The notes below the pieces were generated by a model that was not told where the DNA came from, did no database searches, and saw nothing but the letters and a program-made list of their open reading frames with translations. A stretch of 29,131 bases of DNA from a virus: the IMG/VR virus record IMGVR_UViG_3300038855_000049, positions 1 to 29,131 of that record. One strand, given 5' to 3'. Both the position numbers and the translations under genes were made by a program. Shown piece after piece: positions 5,550-28,428 of the stretch; within the stretch, counting starts at the first letter, position 1; every line of letters starts with the position of its first letter.

Positions 5550-5795
5550 ATGTCAGTATTAAAGAAAGGATTTAACGGTGGCCTCTGGGCATTCCGTTTA
5601 GTATTTGCAGTGGTAGTAGCAGAACTTGCTATTGTTGCAGGAACTGTAGTGGGATGTTTTGAGGAAGATATCTGTACAGATGCAGACACTCAAGCAATTA
5701 AAGAAACGATGCAAGGACTAGCAACAAAGAGTTTTGCATTGTATGCTGCTGAGAAGGGTATTAACTCTAACAGTAAGAAGGAAGAAGAAGCATAA
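5550..5795 (+). CDS. Small membrane protein
   Basis: An 81-residue protein with a long hydrophobic segment at about residues 12-36 ([20 protein letters not shown]), then a polar region with two Cys and a Lys/Glu-rich C-terminus. It overlaps pyrE by TAATG, so it is probably co-translated with it. Function unknown. Confidence 0.6.
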
Positions 5796-6337
5796 TGGAT
5801 GGTCGCGAATTTCGTGACGAACTCCTAGGATTGTTGAAAAAAGATGCTTACCGTAAAGGTGAGTTCACACTTTCTTCTGGGAAGACGAGCGAGCATTATG
5901 TTAATTGCAAGCCTGTGATATTAAATGGTAGGGGACTTACCCTTACCAGTCTTTTGATGTTAAAGGAAATTTCTACCAGGGTAGTAGCAGGACTTACTCT
6001 TGGTGCTGATCCTTTAGTGTCTGGTGTGGCAGTCTGTTCTGCCTTAGATGGTAGGATGATTGATGCCTTGATTGTTCGTAAAGAACCTAAAGGACATGGT
6101 ACAGAGGCATGGATAGAGGGACCTTTACCTACTAAGGATACTAAGATTACTGTATTAGAGGATGTAGTTACTACTGGTGGTAGTTCTATTAAAGCAGTAG
6201 AGAAACTACGTGAATCTGGTTATGTAGTAGAGCGTGTTGTAACTATCATAGATAGGCAAGAAGGTGGTGCTGATGCAATGAAGGCAGCGGATTTAGAATT
6301 AAAATCGTTATTTACATTGGAGGATTTCAATGAGTGA
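5795..6337 (+). CDS. pyrE: Orotate phosphoribosyltransferase
   Basis: A 180-residue enzyme of de novo pyrimidine synthesis that joins orotate and PRPP to give OMP. Visible are the N-terminal '[20 protein letters not shown]' orotate/PRPP-binding segment, '[11 protein letters not shown]' with the flexible-loop basic residues, and the type I PRPP motif [11 protein letters not shown] (121-131). Length is close to the usual 180-210. It would supply UMP for phage DNA together with ribonucleotide reductase. It overlaps the next gene by 8 nt. Confidence 0.92.
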
Positions 6338-21165: not shown

Positions 21166-21957
21166 ATGACTGCGCTGATTGATCCTAAAAAATATACTGA
21201 GACGGTGGAGCGTTTACGCTCCTTTTTTTTGGCTAAAAACTTTTACGAAGTCCACACACAAAACCGTCTAAGTATCCTTGCTGCTTGTGAAGATCCAGAA
21301 ACAGTAGCAACATACAACTATGGTGGTAATGTTTGGCCACTTCCTCAGACTGGCCAGATGTGGTTAGAATATGAATTACTTTCTAACCCTGAAGCATCAG
21401 GGTTTTTTTGTGTCTCAACGTCGTATAGAGCAGAACCTAACCCTGTACCAGGAAGACATGAAACTATCTTCCCCATGTTTGAATTTGAGATGAAGGGAGA
21501 TGTGGATGATCTCAAAGCAATGGAGATTGAACTATGTCAGTACCTTGGGTTACCTGCTCTTGATATTAAAACGTATGCTGATTGGGCAGAGCAGTACAAG
21601 GTAAGGGAACTAGACCACGGACACGAAGCAGCAATAGGAACTGGTATGATTACAGAGTTCCCTGAATGGACATCACCCTTCTGGAACATGTCTAGAAATG
21701 GGGATGGTACTAGTAGAAAGATTGATGTTATCCTTGGTGGTATGGAAACCATAGGCAGTGCTGAGAGGAGCACAGACAAGGATCAGATGAGAGACACCTT
21801 CCATACTATCTCTGATGGTGGGTATGCTCAGTTACTCTACAGAAAATTTGGCAAAGAAAGAGTCGAAGCAGAACTAGATGAGTTCTTAAACTTCGACTTC
21901 TTCCCTCGCAGTGGTGGAGGAATCGGTATGCAACGCCTTATGTCAGCACTCAGCTGA
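21166..21957 (+). CDS. Stand-alone class IIb aminoacyl-tRNA synthetase core (Asp/Asn/Lys type)
   Basis: A 263-residue protein corresponding to the catalytic domain of AspRS/AsnRS/LysRS or archaeal AsnRS-like asparagine synthetase, without the N-terminal OB-fold that reads the anticodon. Visible are 'LPQTGQMWLEYELL', motif 2 'STSYRAEPNPVPGRHETIFP' with Arg-Ala-Glu and Arg-His, an EFEMKG strand, and motif 3 'GGGIGMQRLMSAL'. ATP- and amino-acid-site residues look intact. It could charge the tRNA encoded 7 nt downstream, make asparagine, or modify a protein (as EpmA does). Two perfect terminator-like hairpins lie inside its reading frame (21207-21230, 21385-21409). Confidence 0.85.
   Translation: MTALIDPKKYTETVERLRSFFLAKNFYEVHTQNRLSILAACEDPETVATYNYGGNVWPLPQTGQMWLEYELLSNPEASGFFCVSTSYRAEPNPVPGRHETIFPMFEFEMKGDVDDLKAMEIELCQYLGLPALDIKTYADWAEQYKVRELDHGHEAAIGTGMITEFPEWTSPFWNMSRNGDGTSRKIDVILGGMETIGSAERSTDKDQMRDTFHTISDGGYAQLLYRKFGKERVEAELDEFLNFDFFPRSGGGIGMQRLMSALS
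21207..21230 (+). terminator. Terminator-like hairpin inside the synthetase gene (1)
   Basis: GGAGCG-TTTA-CGCTCC (21207-21222) followed by T8, read in frame as Val-Glu-Arg-Leu-Arg-Ser-Phe-Phe-Leu. It meets all criteria of an intrinsic terminator about 40 nt into the gene. Confidence 0.7.
21385..21409 (+). terminator. Terminator-like hairpin inside the synthetase gene (2)
   Basis: CCCTGA-AGCA-TCAGGG (21387-21402), extendable by two A-T pairs, followed by T7. It is in frame within Asn-Pro-Glu-Ala-Ser-Gly-Phe-Phe. Confidence 0.7.
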
Positions 21958-21964
21958 CATTCCT

Positions 21965-22050
21965 TGTGAGGTGGCGAAATTGGTAAACGCTCCAGGTTGT
22001 TTCCCTGGTGTTCCTGGCGGGACTTGTTGGTTCGATTCCAACCCTCACAG
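21965..22050 (+). tRNA. tRNA with GUU (Asn) anticodon but class II variable arm
   Basis: A full cloverleaf is readable. Acceptor TGTGAGG/CCTCACA is 7 bp. D arm GCG/CGC has GG in the loop. Anticodon stem is CCAGG/CCTGG with loop TTGTTTC (anticodon GTT at 21999-22001). A 17-nt variable region folds GTTCC-TGGC-GGGAC. T arm is GTTGG-TTCGATT-CCAAC. Position 73 is G (22050) and CCA is not encoded. The long variable arm and D arm look like tRNA-Leu, but the anticodon and G73 are those of tRNA-Asn, whereas Leu needs A73. Residue 37 is T, not the usual purine. It starts 7 nt after the synthetase-core gene. Confidence 0.85.
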
Positions 22051-22095
22051 TTTAAAAGAATATTTAGATATTTGTCAGGGAATAGGTATAATTAC

Positions 22096-23783: not shown

Positions 23784-26177
23784 TTGAATCTATACAATGG
23801 TATCTCCGAACGTCTTTTCTACACGTTAGGGAAGCGTCCGGAGACTGCTACCTCTCATGATATTTACATGGCATTATGTTATGCCGTTAGGGATCAGATG
23901 ATGTCTTATCATCTTGCTCCAGAGGTATGTAATAATCAGAAAGAGATATCATATCTTTCTGCTGAGTTTCTTATTGGACCTCAGTTAGGTAACAATCTTT
24001 TGAATCTTGGTATTCAGGAGGAAGCAAAGGAAGCATTACATCAGTTTGATTTAACCCTAGAGGAGGTTCTAGAGCAAGCAGAGGAACCTGGACTAGGTAA
24101 TGGAGGATTGGGACGCCTTGCAGCGTGTTATATGGAGTCTTTAGCAACTCTTGAAGTACCTGCTACAGGTTATGGAATCAGATACAAGTATGGAATTTTT
24201 AGACAAAAGATACTAGAGAATCAACAAGCAGAAGTAACAGACAATTGGTTGCATGGAGATTGGCCATGGGAGTTGTGTCAACCAAGTGAGTCTGTTGATG
24301 TAGGATTTGGTGGTAAGGTAGAGCATTATACATCTGATCAAAATAACTATAGGATTCGTTGGGTACCTGAGGAGCAGGTAGTTGCTGTTCCTTATGATGT
24401 ACTTCAGTTAGGTTATAGAGTTAACTGTTGCAATAGAATAAGATTATGGAGAGCAGATGCTAAGGAGACATTTGATTTCTTTGCATTTAATATTGGTGAC
24501 TATCTTGGTTCAGTAGAACAGAGTGTACAGTCTGAGACTATTTCCAAGGTTCTTTATCCTAATGATGGTACAGATGCGGGTAAGTTATTAAGACTGAAGC
24601 AACAGTTTTTCTTTGTTAGTGCTTCTCTACAGGATATGTTCCGCAACCTAGAGAAGTGTCATGTTCCTCTAGAAGAGTTTCCTAATCGGTATCAGGTACA
24701 GTTAAATGATACCCATCCATCTGTTGCAGTAGCAGAGATGATGAGGTTACTTGTGGATGAAAGGCATGTAGAGTGGGAACAAGCATGGGAGATTACAACT
24801 AAGTCTATTGCATATACAAACCACACTCTATTACCAGAAGCATTAGAGACGTGGAGTCTTAAACTCTTTAAGAGTTTGTTACCTCGTCACCTAGAAATAA
24901 TCTATGAGATTAATCGTAGGTTCCTACAGGTAGTACGACTTAACTATCCTGGTAATGATGAGATACAAGAGAAACTATCTATTATTGGTGAGGGACAGAA
25001 CAAATATATTCGTATGGCACACCTTGCCACAGTAGGTTCACATCATGTTAATGGTGTTGCTGAGTTACATTCAGAATTGATTAAGACTAAGTTGATGCCA
25101 GAGTTCTATGACTTGTGGCCTCATAAGTTTACGAATGTAACTAATGGTGTGACACCACGTAGATGGTTGGCATCATGTAATCCAGCATTGACTGAGGTAT
25201 TAGATGAGTATGTTGGTCCTGATTGGGTAACCAATATGGATAAACTGAAACAACTTGAGGAGCATCAGCATGACTCATCGTTACTTGAGAAAGTTGCGGA
25301 GTCTAAGATACTTGGTAAGCACAGACTTGCTGAATGTATTGCTAGTAGTTGCGGCATTCTGGTTGATCCTAGTAGTAAGTTTGATGTACTGGTTAAAAGA
25401 ATACATGAATATAAACGTCAACATCTATTGGCTCTCCAGGTTGTTCATCAGTATTTGCGTATTAAGTCTGGTGAATCCTTTGCTCCCAGGACTGTTATCT
25501 TTGGTGGTAAAGCAGCTCCTGGATATTATATGGCTAAGCATATCATTCATTTCATATGCAGTGTTGCTGAGGTTATTAATAGCGATCCCGCCACACAAGA
25601 TGTCCTTAAGGTAGTATTCTTACCAAACTACAGTGTGAAGTTAGGTGAGAAGGTATACCCTGCTGCTGATGTGTCAGAACAAATCTCTACTGCAGGTAAG
25701 GAAGCATCTGGTACAGGTAATATGAAGTTCCAAATGAATGGTGCTGTTACTATTGGTACATTAGATGGTGCTAACGTAGAGATACGTAACCAAGTAGGAG
25801 AGGATAATTTCTTCTTGTTTGGTAAGACAGAAGATAGGTTGGATGAGATGAGGCAAGAGGGATACCATCCTCAAGATTTTATTGGATCAAATCTTCAAGA
25901 GGTTATAGATCTAATTCAGTGTGGACACTTCAGTGGTGGTGATAGGTATATGTTTAAACCATTGTTAGATAATCTTATATACCATGATCCCTTCTTTGTA
26001 CTTGCAGATTTTGATGATTATGTGGATGCACAAGATGAAGTTAACAATAGGTGGACAAATCGGGAAGAATGGAATAGAATGTCCTTGCTAAATACTGCAC
26101 GGTCTGGTTTCTTCTCTTCTGATAGATCCATCAGAGATTACTGTCAGACCATATGGAATCATGACACCAATCGATAA
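23784..26177 (+). CDS. glgP: Glycogen/maltodextrin phosphorylase
   Basis: A 797-residue GT35 enzyme that releases glucose-1-phosphate from glycogen using phosphate and PLP. Family blocks are intact along its length: 'YLSAEFLIGPQLGNNLLNLG', 'GLGNGGLGRLAACYMES', 'VQLNDTHPSVAVAEMMRLL', 'FTNVTNGVTPRRWL', 'VKRIHEYKRQHL', and the PLP site 'EASGTGNMKFQMNGAVTIGT' with Lys648. The best start is a TTG right after the previous stop; the first in-frame ATG is 28 codons later and would cut the conserved YTLGKRPETAT region. It is full length and apparently active, so the phage can mobilise host glycogen. The following gene overlaps its end by 17 nt. Confidence 0.95.
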   Translation: MNLYNGISERLFYTLGKRPETATSHDIYMALCYAVRDQMMSYHLAPEVCNNQKEISYLSAEFLIGPQLGNNLLNLGIQEEAKEALHQFDLTLEEVLEQAEEPGLGNGGLGRLAACYMESLATLEVPATGYGIRYKYGIFRQKILENQQAEVTDNWLHGDWPWELCQPSESVDVGFGGKVEHYTSDQNNYRIRWVPEEQVVAVPYDVLQLGYRVNCCNRIRLWRADAKETFDFFAFNIGDYLGSVEQSVQSETISKVLYPNDGTDAGKLLRLKQQFFFVSASLQDMFRNLEKCHVPLEEFPNRYQVQLNDTHPSVAVAEMMRLLVDERHVEWEQAWEITTKSIAYTNHTLLPEALETWSLKLFKSLLPRHLEIIYEINRRFLQVVRLNYPGNDEIQEKLSIIGEGQNKYIRMAHLATVGSHHVNGVAELHSELIKTKLMPEFYDLWPHKFTNVTNGVTPRRWLASCNPALTEVLDEYVGPDWVTNMDKLKQLEEHQHDSSLLEKVAESKILGKHRLAECIASSCGILVDPSSKFDVLVKRIHEYKRQHLLALQVVHQYLRIKSGESFAPRTVIFGGKAAPGYYMAKHIIHFICSVAEVINSDPATQDVLKVVFLPNYSVKLGEKVYPAADVSEQISTAGKEASGTGNMKFQMNGAVTIGTLDGANVEIRNQVGEDNFFLFGKTEDRLDEMRQEGYHPQDFIGSNLQEVIDLIQCGHFSGGDRYMFKPLLDNLIYHDPFFVLADFDDYVDAQDEVNNRWTNREEWNRMSLLNTARSGFFSSDRSIRDYCQTIWNHDTNR

Positions 26178-27557: not shown

Positions 27558-27721
27558 AGATTACACAGAAGATTATTGATGACCTCACTGAGGCATTAGC
27601 ACACAAGAAGAAGGATGGTACTGAAAATTGGAAGGATGGTGATGAGATTGATGTTTGTTTAGGTGGAACCTTTGCAAATGACAAGTTTATTTCTTTGATA
27701 AATCGCTCTAAAGATAAATGA
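27554..27721 (+). CDS. Small hypothetical protein
   Basis: A 55-residue frame (MKITQKIIDDLTEALAHKKK...) with ATGA overlaps at both ends (Nfu-like before, purC after), which makes it very likely real. It is charged, with 'DGDEIDVCLGG' in the middle. Function unknown. Confidence 0.6.
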   Translation: MKITQKIIDDLTEALAHKKKDGTENWKDGDEIDVCLGGTFANDKFISLINRSKDK

Positions 27722-28428
27722 GTCTTATGAAAGAGTTGGTTAAAGGCAAAGTCAAGACTGTCTATGCCGTTGATAATGTAGAACATGTCATGATAATGTA
27801 TCATGATAGGGTGACTGCTGGTAATGGAGAGAAGGAAGATACTATCAGTGATAAGGGTAGTATTAATTGTCAGATAACTGATATCCTTTTTAAGGAATTA
27901 GAGAAGCAAGATATACAGACACATCGTATTGAACGTGTAGGACATACGATGTTGTGTCAGAAGGTAGATATTATTCCTGTAGAGTTTGTAGTGAGGAACA
28001 TTGCTGCAGGTTCTATTGTCAGACAGACTACTCTTAAGGAAGGTAAGGTATTTGATTTTCCTTTGGTAGAATTCTATCTTAAGGATGATAGTAAGAATGA
28101 TCCACTGTTGACAGAGGATCGTATGACTCTGATGGGTTATGATAATATGACACCTATCGTTATGAAGTGTCTTGCTATCAATATGATACTTAAAGACATC
28201 TTTTCACGCATAGGACTTACACTTGTTGATTTCAAATTGGAGTTTGGTTATGATTCCGGACAAAATTTATTGTTAGCTGATGAATTATCACCTGACAGTA
28301 TGCGACTCTGGAAAAAAGGGACGCAAGAGAGTATGGATAAGGACATTTTTAGGAAAGGAGACGGTAATATAATTCCTGCGTATCAAAAGATACTTGACGA
28401 TTTAGTTACATTACTTTATAATAAATAA
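27718..28428 (+). CDS. purC: SAICAR synthetase
   Basis: A 236-residue enzyme of purine synthesis that joins CAIR and aspartate. Diagnostic are the N-terminal 'KGKVKTVYAVDN', 'FVVRNIAAGSI', 'LTLVDFKLEFGYD' and 'LADELSPDSMRLW' motifs. Length equals that of typical bacterial PurC. Start codon overlaps the previous stop (ATGA). It would raise purine supply for phage DNA. Its last codons contain the promoter for psbA. Confidence 0.95.
   Translation: MSLMKELVKGKVKTVYAVDNVEHVMIMYHDRVTAGNGEKEDTISDKGSINCQITDILFKELEKQDIQTHRIERVGHTMLCQKVDIIPVEFVVRNIAAGSIVRQTTLKEGKVFDFPLVEFYLKDDSKNDPLLTEDRMTLMGYDNMTPIVMKCLAINMILKDIFSRIGLTLVDFKLEFGYDSGQNLLLADELSPDSMRLWKKGTQESMDKDIFRKGDGNIIPAYQKILDDLVTLLYNK
28394..28422 (+). 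promoter_or_regulatory. Sigma70-type promoter for psbA, inside the purC 3' end
   Basis: TTGACG (28394-28399), 17-nt spacer, TATAAT (28417-28422). The predicted start, near 28429, coincides with the beginning of the structured leader. The overlapping ATAAATA could also act as a late box. Confidence 0.75.

Follow-up and report, generated by a model that had tools for sequence, protein, structure and literature searches.

Many marine phages carry an enzyme core resembling asparaginyl-tRNA synthetase (AsnRS), here called C2C, immediately followed by a class II-shaped tRNA, and the two form a conserved unit. The C2C family to which this enzyme belongs occurs in both viruses and cells, and its link to pyrimidine synthesis is well supported, making a pyrimidine role for the family likely. 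A fuller explanation, which we put forward tentatively and at somewhat less than even probability, is that C2C is an AsnRS-derived pyrimidine enzyme to which a host-charged, poorly decoding phage tRNA delivers asparagine. The window, that is, the whole stretch of DNA analysed here (29,131 nucleotides, positions 1 to 29,131 of the IMG/VR virus record IMGVR_UViG_3300038855_000049), is a contig of 29 kb from a T4-like cyanophage with high-light-inducible genes, transaldolase and ferredoxin, as read from its open reading frames (ORFs). The nearest relatives of this phage are P-SSM7, P-SSM2 and P-SSM5.

The C2C protein of the window matches Pfam PF00152 (tRNA synthetases class II D, K and N) over nearly its full length (E 1.5e-12, 47.7 bits vs cut-off 25), with motifs 2 and 3 intact. 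Its AlphaFold2 model (pLDDT 91.4) is nearest in structure to AsnRS with Asn-adenylate (1x54, E 5e-18) and comprises the catalytic fold alone. The length of 263 aa leaves no room for an OB-fold, and no N-terminal OB-fold anticodon-binding domain was found in either the ORF or the predicted structure. The pocket residues Q61, T62, Q64, L67 and E68 are invariant among 32 family members. In the alignment the pocket has Leu-Glu as in AsnRS, Leu67 occupying the position of the AspRS specificity lysine, while the side-chain-binding role of R201 is one that we take from knowledge of class IIb enzymes. C2C nevertheless falls far under the curated cut-offs of the AsnRS models (TIGR00457, 15.0 vs 342.6 bits; NF003037, 17.1 vs 414 bits) and reaches 23 bits against the cut-off of 389 for the archaeal-type asparagine synthetase A model NF005055. 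No NCBIfam equivalog over cut-off was found for the family, its PHROG (29758) has no function assigned in PHROG, and the P-SSM2 and P-SSM7 copies are annotated as 'tRNA ligase' (T4-GC 194). Viral and cellular C2C have the same active-site residues; no virus-only catalytic residues were obvious, the virus-specific residues falling outside the motifs. This shared active site suggests that both probably catalyse the same reaction.

Table 1 Features of the window that bear on the C2C-tRNA pair and its pyrimidine context.
Feature	Position	Strand	Details
pyrE, orotate phosphoribosyltransferase	5795..6337	+	TIGR00336, 138.6 bits vs cut-off 106.8
C2C, AsnRS-like class IIb catalytic core without OB-fold	21166..21957	+	263 aa; PHROG 29758
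C2C pocket motif QTGQMWLE, residues 61-68	21346..21369	+	From alignments
C2C class II motif 2 region, residues 83-110	21412..21495	+	R88, E90, H98, F102, E106 and E108 invariant
C2C R201 in GSAER	21766..21768	+	Aligns with side-chain-binding arginine of AsnRS/AspRS; invariant
C2C motif 3 region, residues 248-263	21907..21954	+	R248, G254 and R257 invariant
Class II-shaped tRNA, anticodon GUU	21965..22050	+	No encoded CCA; starts 7 nt past the C2C stop
tRNA U33 and G34-U35-U36-U37	21998..22002	+	G34-U35-U36-U37 at 21999-22002
tRNA variable-arm stem-loop GUUCC-UGGC-GGGAC	22010..22023	+	From sequence; matching helix covaries
tRNA A72 and discriminator G73	22049..22050	+	A72 pairs with U1 (21965); G73 at 22050; near-invariant

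The two genes are separated by only 7 nt (21958-21964). The tRNA scores 51.9 bits with Rfam RF00005 (gathering score 29), the covariance-model check that the first-pass annotation had suggested, and ARAGORN reads it as tRNA-Asn(gtt) at 21964-22051. PF00152, RF00005 and the AlphaFold2 model together confirm the arrangement first described for this locus, a class IIb core without an OB-fold lying 7 nt before a GUU tRNA. The GUU anticodon, U37, G73 and the folded variable arm (a variable region of 17 nt with a 5-bp stem) are likewise all as had been claimed. The structure of the C2C-adjacent tRNA is not due to chance: in a hand-checked alignment of 24 related tRNAs, standard pairs fill 99.8% of cells, and two-sided compensatory changes number 150, compared with 42.7 in shuffles.

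Conservation within this tRNA is unevenly distributed. Among 140 distinct sequences of C2C-linked tRNAs, G34, U35 and G73 are each present in 139, U36 and the U1-A72 pair each in 138. Normal decoding needs U33 and a purine at position 37, yet U33 is found in 105/140 (75%) and purine-37 in just 14/140 (10%), whereas control tRNAs of the same viral loci have them in 109/112 (97%) and 108/112 (96%), respectively. The window tRNA retains U33 but has U37 in place of the purine, and across the family neither position is conserved. Position 37 is U in 120/140, A in 12, C in 6 and G in 2; the unusual U37 to which attention had been drawn is therefore real in the window and common, but it is no universal hallmark of the tRNA family. 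Bacterial Asn identity resides in the anticodon and G73 (PMC9976931), and G34-U35-U36 and G73 are found in both the window tRNA and its family. U1-A72 can be recognised by amidotransferases, while the LeuRS determinant is A73 (PMC9976931), so that G73 speaks against charging by LeuRS despite the Leu-like body of the phage tRNA. The retention of GUU, G73 and U1-A72 together with the loss of U33 and purine-37 indicates that the tRNA looks selected for charging with asparagine, either directly or through amidation of attached aspartate, and not for decoding. Since C2C lacks an anticodon-binding domain, we infer that the kept anticodon fits a host AsnRS or AspRS better than C2C itself.

A few variants and mis-assignments were encountered. 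The class II tRNAs beside C2C in L221, L229 and L231 belong to a small branch that has a true GUC (Asp) anticodon and a different D arm, with U1-A72 and G73 kept. Other ARAGORN calls of Lys(ttt) or Asp(atc) beside C2C are mis-parses where the loop reads NNGTTTN. Codon compensation was rejected as the main reason for the tRNA: P-SSM2 has a single tRNA, namely the C2C-linked one (PMC3037559), and the loop is without decoding features.

The pair extends well beyond the window. P-SSM7, P-SSM2 and P-SSM5 carry C2C at 76-79% identity followed by the same tRNA, and scans of IMG/VR for C2C each returned at least 593-599 confirmed relatives. A class II tRNA lies within 400 nt downstream of C2C in about 203 of the 225 fetched viral loci that have at least 150 nt downstream of the gene (a structure-based finder detected 196 of them and the covariance model a further 7). 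The neighbours thus clearly do co-occur in related phages, as the pairing proposed from the window alone had anticipated. In the remaining viral loci, about 22, C2C has no adjacent tRNA; three long contigs of such phages yielded no class II tRNA elsewhere, and a fourth (G185) carries an ordinary tRNA-Asn and tRNA-Asp instead. An ordinary tRNA-Asn(gtt) and tRNA-Asp(gtc) stand side by side at L345:2253-2412, on the phage contig of L247, which has C2C and no class II tRNA. Divergent C2C relatives at 46-47% identity without the tRNA were seen in huge phages and two viral contigs (L004, L005, L167 and L168). In the literature searched, with subscription journals mostly outside it, no description of the C2C-tRNA pair or of its pyrimidine link was found.

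Cellular members of the family were identified in 125 genome-contig loci at 50-71% identity, carried by Patescibacteria, Bacteroidota including Aureispira, Midichloriaceae, Pasteurella atlantica, Myxococcota and others. In a tree built from 89 representatives, the tRNA-linked viral C2C form one clade (support 93/95) inside the cellular diversity, with the huge-phage relatives falling outside that clade. Adjacency to the tRNA is restricted to the tRNA-linked viral clade, and adjacency to pyrimidine genes is spread across many cellular clades. No class II GUU tRNA was found in 16 cellular genomes with C2C that were searched. A hidden copy elsewhere in cells was considered and rejected: the covariance-model hits scored no more than about 70 bits, and the ones examined were tRNA-Leu; a pattern search of the same 16 genomes gave one match, which was unrelated.

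The cellular gene neighbourhoods point to pyrimidine synthesis. PyrE/PyrF-type genes lie within 5 kb of C2C in 21/80 genome loci and PyrD-type genes in 19/80, two of the latter (L087 and L096) being phage-like; in Bandiella the genes run C2C, pyrF, a PyrE-like phosphoribosyltransferase, pyrD and prs. Gene content agrees with this, as judged on genomes of unknown completeness. PyrB passes its cut-off in 1/22 C2C genomes (G028, which looks contaminated) vs 14/14 control genomes. Within the order of Aureispira, 7 of 150 genomes have C2C and none of these 7 has a PyrB match, compared with PyrB over cut-off in 121 of the 143 genomes without C2C (Fisher p 5e-6, with genomes treated as independent, which they are not fully). 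CarA is over cut-off in 2/25 C2C genomes vs 10/10 comparators, which were picked for having PyrB and so do not form an independent test; in one of the two positives, G004, a carbamoyltransferase scoring under its cut-off is found 3 kb from CarA, an arrangement suggestive of arginine synthesis. For PyrC, 0/25 C2C genomes vs 9/10 comparators have a match over cut-off, sub-cut-off relatives persisting in some large genomes. The later steps are largely retained, with PyrD in 17/22 and PyrF in 24/26 C2C genomes. C2C therefore tends to occur with pyrD, pyrE and pyrF and without PyrB and CarA, the distribution expected of a carbamoyl-phosphate-independent route, except that several Patescibacteria and Dependentiae carriers have no PyrD match. 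At a number of Patescibacteria loci (L093, L094, L105, L107, L127 and others) the neighbours of C2C are not pyr genes but DnaX, a Dus-like flavoprotein and, at some of these loci, SerRS.

Phages show pyrimidine genes as well. The pyrE family of the window is also present in P-SSM2, P-SSM5 and P-SSM7. Single-cell virus fragments aside, these same three cyanophages (6 records) are where both C2C and close pyrE relatives were found in a set of 514 gp23-matching records, 463 of which bear cyanophage names. The gene order in L269 and L270 is a short pyrD, C2C, the tRNA and a pyrE-like gene whose start codon lies close behind the CCA end of the tRNA; L297 has the C2C-tRNA-pyrE part of that order, and in L087 and L096 a short pyrD is near the pair. 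The link is not universal, with pyrE found in just 4/19 large virus records searched. The short PyrD-like protein near C2C in phages L087, L096, L260, L269 and L270 is divergent (229-236 aa). In L087 this protein scores above the cut-off of Pfam DHO_dh, but neither in L087 nor in L270 does it reach any NCBIfam PyrD cut-off, and tblastn did not find it in P-SSM2 or P-SSM7.

We propose that C2C in cells would take the place of PyrB and, in most cases, of CarA and PyrC too. Most simply, it would join asparagine, bicarbonate and ATP to form dihydroorotate or a close precursor without carbamoyl phosphate, and PyrD, PyrE and PyrF would then convert the dihydroorotate into UMP. In composition, dihydroorotate is asparagine plus CO2 minus water (C4H8N2O3 + CO2 - H2O = C5H6N2O4), so that, by chemical reasoning, a single ATP-dependent, asparagine-binding enzyme could replace CarAB, PyrB and PyrC. 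That asparagine is the substrate of C2C we regard as an even call. Marine phages would have acquired C2C and added a dedicated tRNA, which the host AsnRS (or AspRS with GatCAB) would charge by way of GUU, G73 and U1-A72, and which, poorly suited to decoding, would hand its asparagine to C2C. The case for the tRNA being a non-decoding carrier is equally balanced. Because cells and some 22 viral loci have C2C without an adjacent tRNA, the tRNA is not strictly required; it would be an extra, a carrier of asparagine loaded by the host, of use where little of the free amino acid is available. Some genomes of one Synechococcus-like cyanobacterium have asnB and others do not, and asnA was found in none of them (PMC9716671). 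A more demanding version, in which C2C synthesizes dihydroorotate in a tRNA-dependent manner from bicarbonate, ATP and asparagine borne by a dedicated, non-decoding tRNA, the ester protecting the alpha-carboxylate during ring closure, seems to us rather unlikely. Further points stand against the pyrimidine reading and its chemistry. Many Patescibacteria copies lie by other genes and several Patescibacteria and Dependentiae carriers have no PyrD match, so the role may be a different one in these groups. The proposed reaction would also require activation of a carbamate, and the group that class II active sites normally activate is the alpha-carboxylate.

These data also bear on other explanations, beginning with the private charging system that the first-pass annotation had put forward, in which C2C, by way of the acceptor end or the variable arm, loads asparagine onto the class II tRNA, and this tRNA reads Asn codons during infection. 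The tight and widespread linkage of the two genes, the Asn identity elements with the kept GUU, and a fold and pocket like those of AsnRS, with the class II motifs intact, are all in keeping with it, as is the known carriage of tRNAs and synthetases by phages (PMC7162821). It leaves unexplained, however, why GUU should be near-invariant beside an enzyme without an anticodon-binding domain; U33 and purine-37 are not kept, C2C in cells comes without such a tRNA and is correlated with the absence of PyrB, and the active-site residues common to viral and cellular C2C make the same reaction likely in both. Private charging is possible, yet a pyrimidine role is the more likely of the two, and as a complete account of the pair private charging is quite unlikely. 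If C2C instead charged the tRNA for a non-ribosomal step outside pyrimidine synthesis, such as peptide or lipid modification, the conserved pair and the loop positions unsuited to decoding would both be accommodated, but no partner enzyme is seen in common across the loci and the recurrent neighbours with a known pathway are the pyr genes; we give this reading little chance.

Production of asparagine by another route, also raised in the first-pass annotation, is conceivable in general terms but would leave the absence of PyrB and CarA unaccounted for. Its specific form, in which C2C is an ammonia-dependent asparagine synthetase like archaeal AS-A and the phage tRNA takes up the asparagine made, draws on the same architecture (a class IIb core without an anticodon domain), on 3rex among the structural matches of the C2C model and on weak matches to asparagine synthetase A models; the patchy asnB and unseen asnA of the Synechococcus-like population suggest that free asparagine could be scarce in some hosts (PMC9716671). 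The best such model nonetheless scores 23 bits against a cut-off of 389, and the missing PyrB, CarA and PyrC and the pyr operons would go unexplained, making this form improbable. Altered anticodon loops that let phage tRNAs escape host nucleases have been reported (PMC10264068), and the tRNA might accordingly be a nuclease-resistant replacement tRNA-Asn, charged by C2C or unrelated to it. The loss of U33 and purine-37 would, however, also harm decoding, and placement between C2C and a pyrE-like gene would have no explanation; we consider this very improbable.

The proposed pyrimidine enzyme can be set against known systems. C2C resembles AsnRS in its catalytic fold, motifs 2 and 3, the QxxQxxLE and GSxxR pocket and its best structural match, 1x54, but differs in having no OB-fold, in scoring far under the AsnRS cut-offs, in its pyr gene context and in its exclusion with PyrB. 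Like archaeal asparagine synthetase A (AS-AR, 3rex), it would be a stand-alone class IIb core without an anticodon domain that serves metabolism and not translation; unlike AS-AR, whose model it matches far below cut-off (23 vs 389 bits), it accompanies pyr genes and, in phages, a tRNA. The C5 pathway, in which aminolevulinate synthesis depends on Glu-tRNA and uses ordinary tRNA-Glu, is a parallel in that C2C and its tRNA would be a case of primary metabolism using an aminoacyl-tRNA, although the fold and amino acid differ and the phage tRNA is a dedicated one. With the carbamoyl phosphate/PyrB/PyrC route C2C would share the intermediate reached, dihydroorotate, but CarA and PyrB are absent in nearly all C2C genomes and PyrC is over cut-off in none of 25.

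Synthesis of dihydroorotate by C2C without carbamoyl phosphate, if real, would represent a previously unseen entrance to pyrimidine synthesis, would explain how free-living bacteria, relatives of Aureispira among them, live without CarA and PyrB, and would mean that phages carry a shortcut to pyrimidines. If the tRNA carries asparagine, it would add a rare instance of an aminoacyl-tRNA in primary metabolism, with a purpose-made tRNA. P-SSM2 and P-SSM7 have been isolated and sequenced and the C2C gene is small, which makes the claim directly testable. Elsewhere in the window, ORFs resembling glycogen phosphorylase (23784-26177) and SAICAR synthetase (27718-28428) were read from the sequence and are likely host-type metabolic genes.
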